Under the pieces are notes generated by a model, which worked only from the letters and a program-made list of their open reading frames with translations, made no database searches and was not told the origin of the DNA. This document shows positions 5,341 to 25,727 of a stretch of 64,000 nucleotides of DNA, piece after piece; position 1 is the stretch's first letter, and every line of letters begins with the position of its first letter. A program made the translations under genes and the position numbers. The DNA comes from Maritalea porphyrae (GTDB lineage: Bacteria > Pseudomonadota > Alphaproteobacteria > Rhizobiales > Devosiaceae): NCBI RefSeq assembly GCF_027213965.1, contig NZ_JAPWGX010000002.1, positions 1 to 64,000 of the forward strand, in the 5' to 3' direction.

Positions 5341-8300
5341 TTAGATCGTCTTGCCTGAACCCGATATTATTCGCTTGAAGTCTTCAGAAATTGCGAGCAA
5401 CACAGGCACCAAAATCAACATTAGCGCTGTGCCAAATATCTCACCATAAGCCAGCGAAACCGCGGCGGGGATGAGATATTGAGCCTGTTCAGATGTTTCG
5501 GCAAGTAGTGGTAAAAGTCCAACAACAGTTGTTGCTGTCGTCAAGAAGATCGCCTGAAAACGTCCAATGCCCGCATCTTTGAGAGACTGGCTTACATCCT
5601 TTCCGCTTTCGCGCGCTTGATTATACCGCGTGATCAAGACCAAACTGTCATTTACCACCACACCCGTGAGCGCCAGCATTCCAAAGAAGGAAAAGAGCGA
5701 CAGTGATATACCAACGATGAAGTGGCCAACTGCCGCGCCAACAAATCCAAACGGGACAATGGCCAAAATGACGAGTGGCTGCCAATAGCTTTTTAGCGGA
5801 ACGGCAAGAAGCACGTAAATGAGAACAGATGCGATAAGCAGGGCCCGTACCAAGCCGTCTTGTATTTCCCCCATTTCTTCTAGTTCACCACCAGATGACA
5901 CGGTAACGGAGGGATATTTTTTTGCAAACACCTTGATAATATCACGGCTTACCGCTTGACCAACTTCGGATGGCGAAACAATGGATCGGTCAATAGAGGC
6001 AGCAACTGTATTAGAGAGCTTGGCGTTGGTTCGGCTTACCGAGCCAGAAACGTAAGACCCTTCTATTGTTGCGACTGTTGTCAATGGCACCCATTGTCCA
6101 TTTGTCGAACGCAACTCCGATTTCAAAAGATCATCGATTGTATCACGAGCAGTTTTGGCATTTTGCACGAGCACCTTGACCTCATTTCCCTCGCGCAGAA
6201 TGCGCTGAACGTGGGCACCGCCAAAGTTTTGGCCGATTTGGGTCGCGAGTGTTTGCGCAGTGAAACCCAAACTTCTCGCCTCCTGCCGAACCCTTAATCG
6301 CAGCTCAGGCTGCCCACCCTGTAACGAATCCCGCACATTGCTCACACCTTCAATACTGCCCAGGTATTCGCGTAGTTCTTTGCTGGCAATGCCGAGAAGC
6401 TGCGCGTCTTTTGACCGAAGATCTAATCTAAACCCGCCGCCCAGTTCTTCGGCGCCAGAAAACTGCAATTCCACCACGCCCTCAACCTGGCCAACCCGTT
6501 TGCGCCATTCACGCAACATGTCTAAAATTTTGACCCCCGGACGTTCGGCAACGGGACTGAGTTCTGCAAAGATTTGCGCCTCATTTGCGCTAGAAATCAA
6601 TACGAATGTTGTGCGGATCGGAACCTCATCAAGTTCGTACTGTACTTTGTATTCGTCATTAAGCTCATCGCCGATTTTCTCAATATGCGCCACATTATCT
6701 CTAGTCAGCGTAAAGGGCGCTCGGGCGTCCATTTTCAAGTTTATAGTGATCACTTGCCCTGGCACGTCTGGAAAGAAAACAAGTTTGATTTTTCCATTTG
6801 CCACGAGGCCAAGCCCCAAAACAGCAGCCGAAATGAACATCACCAGCACTGCATAACGATGATGAACCGCAGCCACTAGCATGGGGTCGTAGATCTTGTC
6901 CCGGAACCAAAACAATCCAAATTGTGCGATGGATTGCACTTTGGACCACATTCGAGCCGGCAACGATTTGCCCGGCTCACCAATTTTGATGTGAGCCAAA
7001 TGCGCGGGCAAAATGAACTTGCTTTCAATAAGCGAAAAAACAAGTGCCAAAATTACTACCCCTGAAAATCCAGCCAAAACTTTGCCCAGTGGATTATCAA
7101 TAAGCAACATAGGGAAAAACGCAGCGATGGTGGTCAACACACCAAAAACGGTGGCCGTAGCAACTTTTTGCACACCCGTTTCTGTACCCATTATCGGGTC
7201 TTTGGTTTTGCCCCGCTCCTCAAAAACGCTTTCCCCCACCACAACGGCATCATCCACCAGAATTCCTAGGGCGATGATCAAACCAAAGGTAGTGACATCA
7301 TTGAGCGAATAATCAACCCATTTCGAGCCCGCCACAGCTATTGCGCCCAGGACAGAAATCGGTATGCCCATAGCCACCCAAAACGCCAAACGAACGTTTA
7401 GAAAAATCGACAGTATTAATGCCACCAAGGCCAAACCTTGAACACCGTTGGATCGAAGCAATGCCAATCGATCAGAAATATAGTTGGAGCTGTTTCCCCA
7501 AACGGTGATGTTAACGTTTGGAGGCAATTGAGGTGTAAAATCTGCCACCGTTCGCGACACCACATCTGCGACCTTAAGTAAGTTTTCTTTTTGGCCGATC
7601 AATACTTCCATGCCGACTGTGTTTTTGCCGTTCAATCGAAACAAGAAGTCACCTTCAACAAAAGCGTCGCTGATGTGAGCAATATCACCCAACAAAACAC
7701 GAGAGCCGCCTTCGCGCTCGATCACAGGAATGTTTTCAAAATCGCTGACATATCTTGCTCGATCGTCAGCGCGCAACAAAATGTTCCCACCTGATGTACG
7801 AAGCGAGCCGGCTTGAAAGTTCAGCGAGTTTGATTGGATAGCATCGACAATATTTGCCGTGGTAACATTGAGCTGGCGCAGTTTCTCTGGTTCAACTTCA
7901 ATACGCAGCTCTTGAGGAACAATACCCCAGATTTTCAACCGAGACAGTTCTGGTTTTGCCAATAACTCCTCTTTGAGGCGACGAGCCAGCGTCTGCAATG
8001 TTGCGGGGTCCGTGTCGCCATACAGATTGACGTAAAGTGCGGGAAAGTCGAAACCGGATGCCTCAATCACCGGTGATCGTGCCTCACTTGGCAGATCCGA
8101 AATAGCGTCGATCCGCAGGCGGACCTTATCCAGGAGTTTTTGCAAGTCTTGACCGCCGGCTCGCCTCACGGACACAAAGCTAAACCCTTGCGAGGATTGT
8201 GACCTAATCTCTTTGACGCCCTCCAGACCTTCTAGCGATTGCTCGATGCGGTGTGTGACAAGTTCGCTCACCTGCTGCGCGGTCGCGTTGGCATAGGTTG

Positions 8301-19476: not shown

Positions 19477-20970
19477 TTATACTTTTGCCCTTTTTTTGCG
19501 AAGAAAAACGGGAACCAATGCCACGATTATTGCTAGCCCATAAAGCACAATTGAATCTGGGGAATTAACAAGGATTGACCAATCTCCAGCCGAGATAGAC
19601 AGGGCGCGACGCAAGTTGTCTTCAAACAATCCACCCAATACAAAGCCAAGAATGACAGGAGCCAACGGAAAGTCGAGTTTTCGAAGGAGCCACCCCATAA
19701 CGCCAAGCCCTATGATCATGTACAGATCATGTGGGTTTGAAACCACAGAATAGACGCCAATAAACGCCAAAACAGCGATCAAAGGTGTCAAATACTTCTG
19801 TGGAATTGTCAGCATTCGAGCAAAGATTCCGACCAACGGCAGGTTGATTATCAGCAATGCCACATTGCCAATATACATTGATGCAATCAGCCCCCAGGCA
19901 ACCTCAGGATGTTGCGTGAACATGGCGGGCCCCGGGGTTATGTTAAACAACAAAAATGCACCCAGCAGAATTGCAGTTGTGCCAGATCCGGGAATGCCAA
20001 GTGTCAACATTGGAACCATTGCGCCACCTGCGGCCGCATTGTTGGCAGCCTCTGGTGCCGCCAACCCTCTTGGGTCACCTTTGCCGAATGTGCCATTGTT
20101 ATCGGATATGCGTTTTTCCGTGCCATAAGCCACGGCCGATGCAACTGACGCGCCAGTGCCGGGCAAAATGCCAATAAAGAACCCGATAAACGACGAACGT
20201 ACAATCGCCCATTTGACATTCACCATATCGGCCCAAGACACGAAACTCTTATCGATTTTGAGGGCTTTCATCTTGCCAGACACTTGTTGTTCAACAAGAT
20301 GAATCAGCTCAGCCATGCCGAATAAGCCAATAACAACAACCAAGAAATCGATGCCCGCTAGAATGTCGGGAATGCCAAATGTATAGCGTGCAACGCCAGT
20401 GTTTGCGTCAATTCCAATCGAGGCGAGCATGAGACCAAGTAAAGCCGCTAGAAGGGTTTTAACCGCATTGCTGCCGACAAGCGAAGCCAAGCTGGCAAAA
20501 GCGAACACCATTAACGCGACATAGTCTGATGGCGAGAATGTTACCGCGTAGCTGGCGAGCAATGGTCCGAACAAACTCATTAGAATGACGGCAAAAGTAC
20601 CCCCGAAAAACGAGGCGAGCGCAGACAAAGATAATGCCCGACCAGCCTCCCCTTTTTTTGCCATCGGGTTGCCGTCCAATGTGGTGAACACTGCCCCGGC
20701 ATCACCGGGGACATTGAGCAGAATGGATGAAATTCGTCCACCGTATTCTGCGCCGTAGTAGATACCTGCGAGGAGAATAATCGCGGACTCTGCTGGCAGG
20801 CCAAGGCCATAAGCAATCGGCAGCAGGATTGCAACGCCGTTGATGGGCCCCAGACCAGGAAGAGCGCCAATCAACGTCCCAGCAAAGCACCCAACAAGCA
20901 CAAGCATAAGGTTAAAAGGGTCAAAGGCGACTGCAAAACCGGCGCCCAAGCCATTGATGATGGTGTCCAT
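19477..20970 (-). CDS. tctA: Tripartite tricarboxylate transporter large membrane subunit TctA
   Basis: This 497-residue protein has about eleven helices and the TctA signatures GLGPINGVAILLPIAYGL (near 40-57), YYGAEYGGRISSILLNVPGD and GILPGTGASVASAVAYGTEK. TctA forms the transport channel and, with TctB and the periplasmic TctC, takes up carboxylates such as citrate using an ion gradient. It is the last gene of the tctCBA operon, 8 bases after tctB. The actual substrate is unknown, since TctC homologues have diverged widely. Confidence 0.95.
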   Translation of the reverse strand: MDTIINGLGAGFAVAFDPFNLMLVLVGCFAGTLIGALPGLGPINGVAILLPIAYGLGLPAESAIILLAGIYYGAEYGGRISSILLNVPGDAGAVFTTLDGNPMAKKGEAGRALSLSALASFFGGTFAVILMSLFGPLLASYAVTFSPSDYVALMVFAFASLASLVGSNAVKTLLAALLGLMLASIGIDANTGVARYTFGIPDILAGIDFLVVVIGLFGMAELIHLVEQQVSGKMKALKIDKSFVSWADMVNVKWAIVRSSFIGFFIGILPGTGASVASAVAYGTEKRISDNNGTFGKGDPRGLAAPEAANNAAAGGAMVPMLTLGIPGSGTTAILLGAFLLFNITPGPAMFTQHPEVAWGLIASMYIGNVALLIINLPLVGIFARMLTIPQKYLTPLIAVLAFIGVYSVVSNPHDLYMIIGLGVMGWLLRKLDFPLAPVILGFVLGGLFEDNLRRALSISAGDWSILVNSPDSIVLYGLAIIVALVPVFLRKKRAKV

Positions 20971-20978
20971 TTTCTATC

Positions 20979-21419
20979 CTAAAGAAACTGTTTCAAGATG
21001 CCGGATGGCAGGTTGAGGTCCAAGATCATCTTGCACAAAACATATCCCCCCACGCCTGCTGAGACCGCAAAGAGCCCCGCAGGCTTTACGCGCGCACCGA
21101 GAAATTTTGACAATGCGAAGCTGAACATTGTTGTTGAGATGATGAAACCAAGCGGTTTGAAGAGGAATGCGTAAGCGCAAAGCATGCCAACCAAAATTGC
21201 TAGACGCAGTAATGTTTGTTTGCTTGCAGAAAAATCTTCAATTTCCGGGCGAATAATTAGGGCGGCACAGCAAAGTACGGCTAAGCTGCCAATGATCCGC
21301 GGCCAGCTTTCAGGCCCCAAAGGGTCGTACTGAAAAGGTGCCCCAATTACGGTGAATGCAAGAACGACATAGGCAAGCGCTACAAGCAGAACCGCCCCAG
21401 CAAAGATGCGATCTATCAT
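20979..21419 (-). CDS. tctB: Tripartite tricarboxylate transporter small membrane subunit TctB
   Basis: A 146-residue protein with four predicted helices, matching TctB in size and in the string GAPFQYDPLGPESWPRIIGSL after the first helix. TctB is the small, poorly conserved membrane subunit required with TctA. The operon order tctC-tctB-tctA supports the call. Confidence 0.9.
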   Translation of the reverse strand: MIDRIFAGAVLLVALAYVVLAFTVIGAPFQYDPLGPESWPRIIGSLAVLCCAALIIRPEIEDFSASKQTLLRLAILVGMLCAYAFLFKPLGFIISTTMFSFALSKFLGARVKPAGLFAVSAGVGGYVLCKMILDLNLPSGILKQFL

Positions 21420-21475: not shown

Positions 21476-22444
21476 TTAGTCGATCAGACCCGCACCACGC
21501 GCAATGTCGCGCATCTTTGCGACACGTTCGAGGATAGACGCGTTGAGTTCGGCACCTGCCATGTTCAAAGGAAGAAGTCCTTTTTCCTTTTGAATGGTTG
21601 CGAACTCTTCGGTTTCATAGGCCGCTTCAAATGCTTCAACCCATGCGTTATATGCTTCATCTGAAACGTTCTTACCCATGTAGAAGCCACGCAAAATGGT
21701 CCACTCAGCGTCGTAACCAAGTTCAATGGCAGTTGGAATGTCTGCGAAAGGCGCGCCAATACGTTCTGGCGACATTACAGCGAGAATGCGAAGTTTGCCT
21801 TCTCCAACGTGTGAAACCAATTCACCCACGTCACCCATATAAACTTCGATTGACCCACCTAATAGCGCAGCAATTGACTCGCCGCCGCCATCAAACGCCA
21901 CATAGCGCATATCGCGTGGGCTCAACTGACGAGAACCGAGCAACAACGCCGCCTTCATCCAATCCTGAGAACCAATTGAGCCGCCTGCGCCAACCACAAT
22001 TGATTTCAAGTCCTTTTCAGCTGCGGCCATTAAATCGTCTAGCGATTTGAAACGGGAATCTTCAGGCACAACGATTGCACCAAAGTCGGCGCCGACTGAT
22101 GCGAGAAAACGCACGTCGGATTCTTTCCATTCGCCATATTTTCCAGTTGCCATGTTGAGCAAAGAACCCGATGAAAATGCCACGATTGCGTTGTCATCAT
22201 CTGTTCGCGTGGTGTTGAACAAATTGATCGCAACGGCGCCAACGCCGCCTGGCATAAATGTTACCTGGATCGGCTTCTCCATTTGAGCTTTCAAACCAGA
22301 TTGCGCAACACGACACGTCAAATCAAAACCACCGCCCGGTTTTGCTGGTGCAATGCATTCAGGTCTATCGATTGGACCGGCAAAAGCAGGAGCTGCGAGA
22401 GTAAGCGATACCGCCAAAATGGTGCTAAATTTTTTGAAATTCAT
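21476..22444 (-). CDS. tctC: Tripartite tricarboxylate transporter substrate-binding protein TctC
   Basis: The 322-residue precursor starts at ATG 22444 behind GGGAGG and has a signal peptide MNFKKFSTILAVSLTLAAPAF ending near AFA-GP. The mature protein shows PGGGFDLTCRVAQSGL near the N-terminus and MPGGVGAVAINLFNTTR, features of the Bug/TctC binding fold that holds a carboxylate. It is the first gene of the transporter operon. A -10 element and four phased TGAC boxes lie 65-121 bases upstream, so the TctD regulator probably activates it directly. Confidence 0.93.
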   Translation of the reverse strand: MNFKKFSTILAVSLTLAAPAFAGPIDRPECIAPAKPGGGFDLTCRVAQSGLKAQMEKPIQVTFMPGGVGAVAINLFNTTRTDDDNAIVAFSSGSLLNMATGKYGEWKESDVRFLASVGADFGAIVVPEDSRFKSLDDLMAAAEKDLKSIVVGAGGSIGSQDWMKAALLLGSRQLSPRDMRYVAFDGGGESIAALLGGSIEVYMGDVGELVSHVGEGKLRILAVMSPERIGAPFADIPTAIELGYDAEWTILRGFYMGKNVSDEAYNAWVEAFEAAYETEEFATIQKEKGLLPLNMAGAELNASILERVAKMRDIARGAGLID

Positions 22445-22508
22445 GATTTCCTCCCATGGGATGCAAACGAAAGCGCCCAAGCGGCCCCACAACCGCCTGA
22501 GCGTTGCC

Positions 22509-22565
22509 TTTATATGGGACCCAACTGACGGTGGATTGACTCCAAACTGACCTGAAGCTGACCGT
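22509..22565 (-). promoter_or_regulatory. tctC promoter with four 11-base-phased response-regulator boxes
   Basis: On the minus strand TATAAA (22509-22514) is a good -10. Upstream of it TGAC occurs on the plus strand at 22526, 22537, 22548 and 22559, exactly 11 bases apart, with the shared pattern RNYTGAC. The boxes cover the place of the -35 and end about 8 bases before the -10, the geometry of PhoB-type activated promoters. The adjacent OmpR-family regulator TctD is the obvious ligand. Confidence 0.65.
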
Positions 22566-22626
22566 TAGAAATTTCGGCTATCGGGCATTGGTTATGGGGC
22601 TCAATTGCCCTAATGTTTTGCTCGTC

Positions 22627-23298
22627 ATGAGGATATTGTTGGTCGAAGATAATCGAGAGTTGGCAGAACTAATTGCGCTCAGGTTCAATGCTGAGGGTAG
22701 CGCCCTCGACTGGGAATCTAACGGACAAGAGGCTCTGCAGCTTTTGCGTCACAAACAATTTGATCTGGTTATTCTAGATATCAACTTGCCTGGTGCGTCT
22801 GGCGTCGATGTACTCAACGATGTTCGCGCTAGAAACGACAATATTCCCATAATCGTCCTTACTGCCCGCTCCAACATTGCCGATCGAATAAACATTTTGG
22901 ATGTGGGAGCAGATGACTATCTGACCAAGCCTTTTGACTTCGGCGAATTGGCTGCTCGATGCAGGGCTGTGGTGCGGCGCCGATCGGGCCAATCAAGCAA
23001 TCTCGTCATCTTTGGCAAGTTCCAATATGACCGACGTGCAAAGCGCGTCTTAATCGATGGCGTGGAGGTTGAACTGCAAGCCCGAGAGGTACAGCTGCTC
23101 GAAGTGTTCTTGAGCAATTTGGGGCGGGTCATGTCAAAAGAAGACGTAGCCGACAAAATCTATACCTTTAGTCAAGCGCCCAGTTTAAATGCGGTTGAAC
23201 AAACGGTGACAAGGCTGCGAAAAAAACTCGAAGGTTCGGATTTTGCAATTCGAACGATTAGAGGGTTGGGCTATCTGGCCAGTGCAAATGAAAGATAG
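22627..23298 (+). CDS. tctD: OmpR-family response regulator TctD
   Basis: This 223-residue regulator begins MRILLVEDNRELAELI with the acidic pair of the receiver, has the phosphorylated Asp at about 51 (LVILDINLPG), the Thr in VLTARS and the Lys in DYLTKPFDFGEL, and then a winged-helix domain (VEQTVTRLRKKLEGS). An upstream TTG or ATG would add up to 13 residues but would not improve the fold. It is transcribed away from tctC and overlaps the kinase gene by 11 bases. It should bind the four TGAC boxes between the two genes. Confidence 0.92.
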   Translation: MRILLVEDNRELAELIALRFNAEGSALDWESNGQEALQLLRHKQFDLVILDINLPGASGVDVLNDVRARNDNIPIIVLTARSNIADRINILDVGADDYLTKPFDFGELAARCRAVVRRRSGQSSNLVIFGKFQYDRRAKRVLIDGVEVELQAREVQLLEVFLSNLGRVMSKEDVADKIYTFSQAPSLNAVEQTVTRLRKKLEGSDFAIRTIRGLGYLASANER

Positions 23299-24688
23299 AA
23301 AACGAGCAACTTATTCTTTGCGACGGCGGCTAACATTTGCGATGGCTGCGGGCTTTATGCTTGTCCTTGTGATCATCTCGATTGGGCTTTGGAGTTATGC
23401 CCGTTCGGCAGCAAATCAAACTTACGACTTGTTGTTGCAAGGTGCATCGATTGCCATTGAAGAACGCATATCGATTATCGACAACAAAGTTCTCGTAGAC
23501 TTACCCCCTGCCGCACACCAGATTTTGGCGCTCTCCCGCGCTGATCGTGTGTTTTACAGGGTGATGGATGCCAACGGAAAAACGATTACAGGCAACCAAG
23601 ACCTACAAAGTGTTGGGTCGCCGACCGAAGATAAAACCAATCAGTTTTACGACGCTTTCTATCTTGGTGAATTGGTTCGTTTCTCGGTGCGCTACCGTCA
23701 CTTAGTTTCAGCTACAGCAACCGAAACTGTTGGCGTTCAGATTGGCCAAACTCGAAACAGTCGAAATGAACTACAACGCGATATTTTTCTTAAGGGCTTT
23801 TCTGGCTTAGCCATATTGGCTGTTATTTCCCTGGTATTTTCGCGCGTGGCCATCACAATTGCTATGCGCCCACTTCTAGGAATTGAGAAAAACATCTCCC
23901 AAAGAACACAGTTTGACCTTTCACCTTTGGCCGCACAACCGCCAAGAGAAATTGTTGGGCTAATTGATTCAATCAATGGGTTTATGAACCGCTTGGCTGT
24001 CTCCAAAGACAATGCAGAACAATTTATTGCCGATGTGGCCCATCAAATGCGCACTTCTCTCACCACAGTGATGGGTCACATGCAAAATGCCGACAATCAA
24101 ATGGATCCTAAAATTCATAAAGCGAGCAATGAAAAAGCCTTGTCGGCACTAGCGCGCACAATAAATCTGACCAATCAATTGCTCGCACACGCAATGATCA
24201 TGCATCGTCATGATCATATTGAGTTTGAAGAAATCGATTTGGCGCAAATAATTACGGCGGCGGTAGAACGAACGCTCTCGATTGATCGCCATGAGAACAT
24301 TGAAATCGAAGTGCATATTGCACCCAAATTAAAAGGTTGCGCATTTGTTGTAGGAGATGCTGTCGCCATCAAAGAAGCGATCGACAATGTGTTGGTGAAC
24401 GCTGTTCAACACTCGGGCGGTCAGTGCCGCATTTGGATATCAATTGAGGAAACAGCTACATCTGGAGTTTGCATTCAAATCGAGGACGATGGCCCTGGCT
24501 TGGATTTGGCGCAGCAGTCAGCGGTGCTGGAGAGGTTTTTCGCGACGGGGCCTTACGCTGGTAGTGGTGTTGGCCTGTCTATTGTATCAGCTGCAATGAA
24601 AAGCCACTCGGGGAGTATTGAACTCACAGGTTCACCTCATGGCGGGGTTTGTATCAAGCTGACATTTCCCAAATTGGTGGAACATTAA
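23288..24688 (+). CDS. tctE: Sensor histidine kinase TctE
   Basis: The kinase has 466 residues from ATG 23288. A membrane helix lies at about 18-40, followed by a periplasmic 2CSK-type N-terminal domain of about 140 residues and a second helix near 180-205. HAMP-like sequence leads to the H-box DVAHQMRTSLTTV; the usual HELRTPL is altered to HQMRTSL but the histidine is kept. N-box DNVLVNAVQHSG and the ATP lid GSGVGLSIV are intact. It should sense the carboxylate, possibly through the binding protein encoded next, and phosphorylate TctD. Confidence 0.9.
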   Translation: MKDRKRATYSLRRRLTFAMAAGFMLVLVIISIGLWSYARSAANQTYDLLLQGASIAIEERISIIDNKVLVDLPPAAHQILALSRADRVFYRVMDANGKTITGNQDLQSVGSPTEDKTNQFYDAFYLGELVRFSVRYRHLVSATATETVGVQIGQTRNSRNELQRDIFLKGFSGLAILAVISLVFSRVAITIAMRPLLGIEKNISQRTQFDLSPLAAQPPREIVGLIDSINGFMNRLAVSKDNAEQFIADVAHQMRTSLTTVMGHMQNADNQMDPKIHKASNEKALSALARTINLTNQLLAHAMIMHRHDHIEFEEIDLAQIITAAVERTLSIDRHENIEIEVHIAPKLKGCAFVVGDAVAIKEAIDNVLVNAVQHSGGQCRIWISIEETATSGVCIQIEDDGPGLDLAQQSAVLERFFATGPYAGSGVGLSIVSAAMKSHSGSIELTGSPHGGVCIKLTFPKLVEH

Positions 24689-24689
24689 T

Positions 24690-25727
24690 ATGGCAAAACT
24701 TTTCCCCATTATATTGGCCCTTGGAACGTTTCTTTGCGCAACAACTGCGGCGCATGCGCAACAGCGCAACCAACTTGTTGTCCTTAGCGCCACCGACACC
24801 ACTGCGTTCGCCAATGTCTTGCATTCATTTGAAGCCAAGTTCCCGAATATCAAAATTGATTATCAAGAGTACAACACGCGAGAATTGTATGAGCACGTAT
24901 TGTCTGGTCAACATGCGGGCGACGTTATCATTTCTTCAGCCATGGATTTGCAAACCGATTTGGTGAACAAGGGATTGGCGCACAAGTTTCAACCAGCAAA
25001 ACTGGCCGACTCCCCGGAATGGTCTTATTGGCTGGATTCCTTGTTTGGGTTTACCTTTGAACCTGTGGCTATGGTTTATAATCGCGAAGCGTTTGCTGAA
25101 CTCAAGCTACCAGACACCCGTTCAGAGCTTGCGGGTCTAATACGCGACAACCCTAATTTCTTTGCGGGAAAAATTGGCACCTACGATATTGGCCAGTCTG
25201 GTGTGGGCTATTTGCTTGCGACGCAGGACACGCAGCGCGGTTACTTGTATTCGCGATTAATTGAGACCTTTGGTCGTGCCAGGGCAAAAGTCTATTGCTG
25301 CACATCGGAAATGATCGAACAGATTGCAGCAGGTGAACTGGTATTGGGTTACAATATCCTAGGCTCTTACGCTCACAATGCCGCAACTCAAAACGCTCAA
25401 ATTGGGATAAAGCTCTTTGAAGACTATGCATTGGTTATGACAAGAACCGCATTTGTTGCCAAAGGCTCCACAAACCTAAGTCAGGCCAAGACATTTGTTT
25501 CCTATTTGCTTTCGGAGGAAGGGCAACAAGCAATATCGGGTAGTTCGTCATTAATTCCGCTCCACGAGAGCAGTCGTTCGATGGAGGTAAGGTCACTCTT
25601 GCAGTCCAGCCGCGCTTTGCTTCCCATTCGACTGGGGCCTAACCTTTTGACATACTTAGACGAAATCAAACGAGATCAATTTTTGTCAGACTGGCATGCT
25701 TCACTTGACGTAAACGAACCCCAGTGA
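24690..25727 (+). CDS. Periplasmic solute-binding protein, family 1 (iron/phosphoglycerate-sensor type)
   Basis: The 345-residue precursor has a signal peptide (MAKLFPIILALGTFLCATTA, then AHA-Q) and a type II binding fold that begins QLVVLSATDTTAFANVLHSF. It resembles AfuA/FbpA-type and PgtC-type proteins. No ABC permease or ATPase accompanies it; it starts 1 base after the tctE stop. In the Salmonella phosphoglycerate system the binding protein PgtC works with a kinase in signalling, so a sensory partner role for TctE is likely. A pair of cysteines (YCCTS, near residue 205) is visible. The ligand is unknown. Confidence 0.8.
   Translation: MAKLFPIILALGTFLCATTAAHAQQRNQLVVLSATDTTAFANVLHSFEAKFPNIKIDYQEYNTRELYEHVLSGQHAGDVIISSAMDLQTDLVNKGLAHKFQPAKLADSPEWSYWLDSLFGFTFEPVAMVYNREAFAELKLPDTRSELAGLIRDNPNFFAGKIGTYDIGQSGVGYLLATQDTQRGYLYSRLIETFGRARAKVYCCTSEMIEQIAAGELVLGYNILGSYAHNAATQNAQIGIKLFEDYALVMTRTAFVAKGSTNLSQAKTFVSYLLSEEGQQAISGSSSLIPLHESSRSMEVRSLLQSSRALLPIRLGPNLLTYLDEIKRDQFLSDWHASLDVNEPQ

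Follow-up and report, generated by a model that had tools for sequence, protein, structure and literature searches.

The window, as the whole 64-kb stretch of DNA analysed here will be called, carries a tctCBA operon that is divergently oriented from the regulatory genes tctD and tctE and from a gene encoding an extracellular solute-binding protein (Table 1). This gene order was seen again in relatives, though not in all the genomes fetched. The start codons that face each other across the intergenic region are an ATG at 22444 for tctC (minus strand) and an ATG at 22627 for tctD (plus strand). The protein encoded by the regulator gene combines a receiver and a winged-helix domain (Response_reg and Trans_reg_C), and its gene adjoins those of a TctE-like kinase and of the transporter, in agreement with an earlier note on this DNA that had placed a TctD-type gene of the OmpR family at this point. 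Its top NCBIfam model is TctD, with a score of 195.8 bits that falls under the equivalog cut-off of 337 (NF012023), and it is therefore considered a TctD-like regulator outside that equivalog.

Table 1. Genes and predicted regulatory elements of the tct locus (positions in the window)
Feature	Position	Strand	Basis
tctA, large membrane subunit	19477..20970	-	Pfam TctA
tctB, small membrane subunit	20979..21419	-	Pfam TctB
tctC, periplasmic receptor of the tripartite tricarboxylate transporter, predicted target gene	21476..22444	-	Pfam TctC
13-bp stem-loop predicted close to the start of the tctC leader	22474..22503	-	Folding, z -2.1
Candidate -10 element TATAAA of the predicted tctCBA promoter, 10 nt past the last GTCAG	22509..22514	-	TA at equal offset in relatives
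Putative operator, four TGAC/GTCA half-sites with 11-bp period, GTCAG-GTCAG-GTCAA-GTCAG on the tctC strand	22526..22562	-	Sequence; kept in relatives
tctD, OmpR/PhoB-type response regulator, predicted binder	22627..23298	+	Response_reg + Trans_reg_C
tctE, sensor histidine kinase	23288..24688	+	2CSK_N + HATPase_c; HisKA just below cut-off
Extracellular solute-binding protein gene, 3' of tctE, recurrent third member	24690..25727	+	SBP_bac families

In the gap between tctC and tctD the tetramer TGAC occurs four times, at 22526, 22537, 22548 and 22559, with a spacing of exactly 11 bp and each copy in an RNYTGAC context (AACTGAC, GATTGAC, AACTGAC and AGCTGAC); both the positions and the contexts had been read correctly in the earlier note. 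On the plus strand the half-sites are CTGACGG, TTGACTC, CTGACCT and CTGACCG. The fourfold array has a single match in the 64 kb and none in 100 dinucleotide shuffles, and a scan of the window for all plus-strand 4-mers at periods of 5-25 gave no other exact array of four copies.

At the level of the whole 3.6-Mb assembly, the exact fourfold TGAC with 11-bp period is found at three sites, including the array described here. One of the others (G000:C44; L079 near 6726-6773) is located within iteron-like TTGACAACTGG tandem repeats adjoining an integrase gene. The remaining one (G000:C76:82779-82815; L080 near 6780-6816) has flanks unlike those in the window, with a DUF2461-like gene on one side and a thymidine kinase gene on the other (gene names assigned by eye), and may serve a different OmpR-type regulator as operator. 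A wider regulon in this genome was considered and rejected, as the flanks of the C44 and C76 arrays differ, and therefore one target is predicted in the own genome. A fourfold TGAC array of the same kind was also noted in genome G1009 (G1009:C1:413835-413871; L371 near 5836-5872), at the 3' terminus of a gene that looks LysR-like by eye and 40 kb from the tct locus.

It had been proposed in the earlier note to look for the 11-base repeat in related tctC-tctD regions; this comparison was performed and the repeat is kept. A first set of 300 loci was obtained from protein similarity to TctD and TctC plus pattern searches, of which 247 contained a TctD match and 46 showed tctC divergent from the TctD gene; removal of identical intergenic sequences left 36 distinct regions from 25 genera. 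These regions were chosen by protein and gene order; the loci from pattern searches had re-fetched the window alone and were discarded as duplicates. In 32 of the 36 regions two CTGWC half-sites stand exactly 11 bp apart, against 0-1 regions for each of the other spacings from 5 to 21. In the four misses (L014, L123, L254 and L271) the half-sites at 11 bp are of the CTTTCA type, and a motif widened to CTKWC after these misses had been seen occurs at 11 bp in all 36 (other spacings, 0-2). A later search with the TctD clade of the window provided 20 distinct further divergent loci from 12 genera, one of these genera (g58) also occurring in the first set. The CTGWC pair at 11 bp was detected in 18 of these 20 loci (other spacings, 0-3); L325, still scored as a miss, has a four-box array 327 bp upstream of tctD, just beyond the stretch read, and L311 showed no 11-bp CTGWC pair in the intergenic stretch read.

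Upstream of TctD homologs without a divergent tctC the 11-bp CTGWC pair was found in 17 of 190 distinct regions (other spacings, 0-2), three of the 17 belonging to same-genus orthologs (L031-L033). In a control for a threefold TGAC at 11 bp, the upstream regions of such homologs gave 2 matches in 193, duplicates being kept and L002-L004 and L031-L033 excluded from this count. All the loci used to evaluate conservation are related by descent, and the shuffle statistics ignore this kinship. The two further exact arrays in the genome, one of them in repeat DNA by an integrase gene, would be in line with the array being a chance product or a neutral tandem repeat; however, the TGAC core and its frame are kept while the linkers vary, and the array recurs in relatives across families. 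This explanation, to which practically no likelihood was assigned, was ruled out by the conservation found. Since the pattern was found again in many related bacteria, the array very probably acts as a genuine control switch.

The position of the half-sites relative to the tctC -10 is also fixed in many relatives. On the tctC strand the window reads GTCAG-ttgggtccca-TATAAA, with a spacer of 10 nt after GTCAG; the -10 element announced in the earlier note is thus present on this strand, but at a gap of 11 nt from the nearest TGAC (22515-22525) instead of the 8 or so bases that it had indicated. A TA exactly 10 nt past the tctC-proximal GWCAG (tctC strand) was observed in 15 of 32 loci, compared to a maximum of 9 for any offset among 2000 single-base shuffles that ignore kinship. 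The four loci lacking CTGWC were left out of this test and joined in a 36-locus version, in which TA stands at +10 in 19 loci with a next-best offset of 4; in L200 a second, weaker pair located farther upstream was left unused as anchor. In the later set TA at +10 was found in 13 of 18 loci (next-best offset, 2). The dinucleotide is missing from this position in 17 of the 36 and 5 of the 18 loci, respectively. On the tctD side no -10 offset reaches above 3 of 32 loci, and a search of positions 22400-22700 detected no sigma70 site with a -35. At the position of the predicted stem-loop many, although not all, of the other tctC leaders fold better than shuffles; the operator assignment does not depend on this structure.

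A tree of 78 TctD homologs placed the window protein in a clean split of 30 members with a support of 0.89. Runs of at least three half-sites, counted within 420 bp, were found for 17 of these 30 and for none of the other 48 homologs. Divergent tctC genes are found at 15 of the 30 clade loci, representing 9 genera, and at 13 of these 15 (7 genera) the half-sites number four or six, in every case with TA at +10 (13/13); the other two, L322 with three half-sites and L303 with two, are both without it. Where the half-sites are exactly four, the second from the -10 is GTCAA in 11 of 11 loci. Eleven clade members of genus g525 that are without a divergent tctC have no half-site run, and the sole g525 clade member with a divergent tctC, L321, has four half-sites. 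In 10 of those 11 g525 genomes the threefold TGAC at 11 bp was searched for and matched in 4, none adjoining tctD, and the reversed control pattern matched in 5. The half-sites themselves differ as well: in the clade, 99% of 70 half-sites have A as the fourth letter of CTGWC, followed by a variable base (A in 39%), whereas outside the clade either A or T stands at the fourth letter and 83% of 72 half-sites have A directly after the motif. The recognition helix NA[VI]EQxx[TA]RLR was evaluated as a mark of the clade and discarded, as L204, L207, L305, L337 and L221, each of which has two half-sites, share it; specifically, NA[VI]EQxxTRLR is found in all clade members but L321 and also in L221, and EQxxARLR in L204, L207, L305 and L337. 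The clade is therefore defined by the tree and not by the helix.

The arrangement found in the window is that of the PhoB/OmpR class, with conserved direct-repeat half-sites in four copies at an 11-bp period, and with boxes that replace the -35 at a fixed spacing to the -10 (N10 as in Escherichia coli pstS and phoA). The class is further characterized by stronger binding upon phosphorylation and by contact with sigma region 4. PhoB is described as recognizing an 11-nt repeat unit (PMC4415409, PMC2648988) with GTCA(C/T) as the monomer site (PMC8041468), and at phoA its sites overlap the -35 (PMC3348028). The geometry of pstS (GTCAC-N10-TATTTT) and phoA (GTCAC-N10-TATAGT) is the same as in the window to the base, and phoB (GTCAT-N10-CATAAT) fits when CTGTCAT is the chosen anchor, a choice on which the fit depends because a further CTGAC stands 11 bp past CTGTCAT; the E. 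coli K-12 -10 hexamers were chosen by eye. At pstS there are likewise four half-sites with 11-bp spacing, of which the second from the -10 is deviant (TACAT), as is that of the window (GTCAA). The E. coli PhoB promoters differ from the window in their CTGTCAT half-sites, AT-rich linkers, regulator (PhoB) and signal (phosphate). The layout of a PhoB-class activated promoter, which the earlier note had recognized, is supported by this comparison.

The half-site GTCA and the 11-bp period are common to the pho box (PMC4415409, PMC8041468), and in Pseudomonas aeruginosa sites for PhoB and TctD adjoin at some promoters (PMC4513871), which would fit with the array being bound by PhoB or another member of the OmpR family and not by TctD. 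On the other hand, none of the four window half-sites is the CTGTCAT of a pho box. In addition, a pho-type box of the same genus, located before a 5'-nucleotidase-like gene (protein assigned by eye), is CTGTCATAAAACTGTCA, and the long half-site runs follow the TctD clade. Binding by PhoB or another OmpR-family regulator is thus regarded as quite improbable.

Not all boxes are found between divergent tctC and tctD genes. Six genomes contain 14 TctC genes and, besides that of the window, 4 of the other 13 have an 11-bp CTGWC pair upstream; no such pair was found nearby upstream of the remaining 9 (L092-L100). The four boxed genes (G000 C33, G001, G002 and G003) are without a TctD match in the 8-10 kb fetched, appear to represent a single operon shared by four genomes of the genus, and show TA at +10 in two cases. 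In this genome this second tctCBA operon (L296, G000:C33, ~49 kb) carries the two-half-site box CTGACACCAACCTGTC with no TctD match in 10 kb, and a TctD-TctE-solute-binding protein set without a box lies 29 kb off. G000 and G003 encode elsewhere a TctD-like protein of another clade whose gene has no box (L040 and L034, respectively). In G001 and G002 no TctD-like gene of that other clade is present among the matches listed, which argues against a simple one-to-one pairing of regulator and box.

Conversely, in the same-genus TctD orthologs L031-L033 the boxes are present and the divergent gene is not tctC; in L031, the case tested, it encodes an AbrB-family membrane protein (Pfam) and TATGTA is found at +10 from the boxes. 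In all three, a CTTGGC/T-17-TATGAT promoter lies downstream of the boxes and 6 nt ahead of the tctD ATG, so that the boxes there may serve tctD, the divergent gene or both. As L031-L033 and L313 keep 2-4 boxes with no tctC adjoining, the presence of boxes does not depend on tctC alone. Together with the report that TctD of P. aeruginosa also controls tctD (PMC4513871), the boxes kept by these orthologs upstream of a conserved tctD promoter suggest that the array might function mainly in autoregulation of tctD and be near tctC only incidentally. This seems unlikely: the first box lies at widely different distances from the tctD start (from -28 to -121 among the 32 loci and from -73 to -327 among the clade members), and it is the distance to the tctC -10 that is often fixed. 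Moreover, one tctC operon keeps its box in four genomes of the genus with no TctD match in 8-10 kb, and the TctD paralogs L034 and L040, with no adjoining tctC, have no box. Because the fixed distance is on the tctC side, an exclusive role in tctD control was set aside as the main function; an additional effect of the array on tctD itself is possible, with no conserved distance by which it could be placed.

Tct operons under the control of a TctD-TctE pair are reportedly present in Salmonella (tctI/TctD, work attributed to Widenhorn, 1989), and a pair of this type, BctDE, is said to govern a tct operon in Bordetella. The view expressed in the earlier note that the family is little described beyond these two genera is outdated, as a regulon, a motif and electrophoretic mobility shift assays (EMSA) are available for P. 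aeruginosa (PMC4513871). According to that report, tctD and opdH-tctCBA are among the targets identified by transcriptome analysis, the promoters of these targets yielded a de novo motif with sites termed bipartite, and the EMSA shifts described concern three co-regulated promoters, those of glpQ, ugd and PA14_56560, rather than that of opdH; expression of opdH drops in the tctD mutant, TctD being considered its activator, and the ChIP-seq data included concern PhoB (PMC4513871). Induction of opdH by citrate requires both TctD and TctE (PMC10865840), and another study calls the mechanism in this species derepression, in contrast to the activation predicted for the window (PMC6403454). The P. 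aeruginosa pair resembles that of the window in controlling a tct operon through an OmpR/PhoB-type regulator, and differs from it in that the tct operon is headed by the porin gene opdH. Since a TctD motif of P. aeruginosa has been published, the kind of operator is already known; no alphaproteobacterial TctD operator appears among the titles and abstract openings listed from the open-licence literature on TctD motifs, TctD binding sites and tctC/tctD direct repeats, although full texts (for example PMC7020829) may describe one.

Based on its conservation, the distance to the tctC -10 that is fixed in many relatives, and its association with divergent tctC and with one TctD clade, the array most likely serves as operator for the activation of the divergent tctCBA operon by phosphorylated TctD. 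A pair of TctD dimers would be positioned head to tail on the four half-sites and, as the half-site nearest to tctC lies 10 nt before TATAAA, the array would cover the -35 region. The bound regulator would then recruit sigma70 polymerase, as PhoB does at pstS. In this model TctD is the predicted binder, its phosphorylation would be needed, its binding is expected to activate tctC transcription, and the start site of tctC would be near 22502. Judged by comparison with relatives, it is well supported that the array represents a real and unusually clear case of a PhoB-class TctD operator for tctC, which entails no new mechanism.

A broader and considerably more tentative hypothesis is that of an operator code for TctD throughout the Pseudomonadota (CTKWC at 11 bp, N10 and the tctC -10), with half-site number and sequence co-evolving with TctD. 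Within such a code, which for the moment should be taken as a speculative proposal, the clade of the window might use four to six CTGAC with a relaxed following base, and other clades two CTGWCA/CTTTCA. If the code is true, the difference in half-sites would keep two TctD systems of one cell apart, as in this genome.

For many tripartite tricarboxylate transporters neither the substrate nor the control is known. A simple operator rule would help to pair TctD-type regulators with tct operons, including those that are unlinked, and the paralogous TctD regulators together with their sites would constitute a natural series for the study of target insulation among response regulators.
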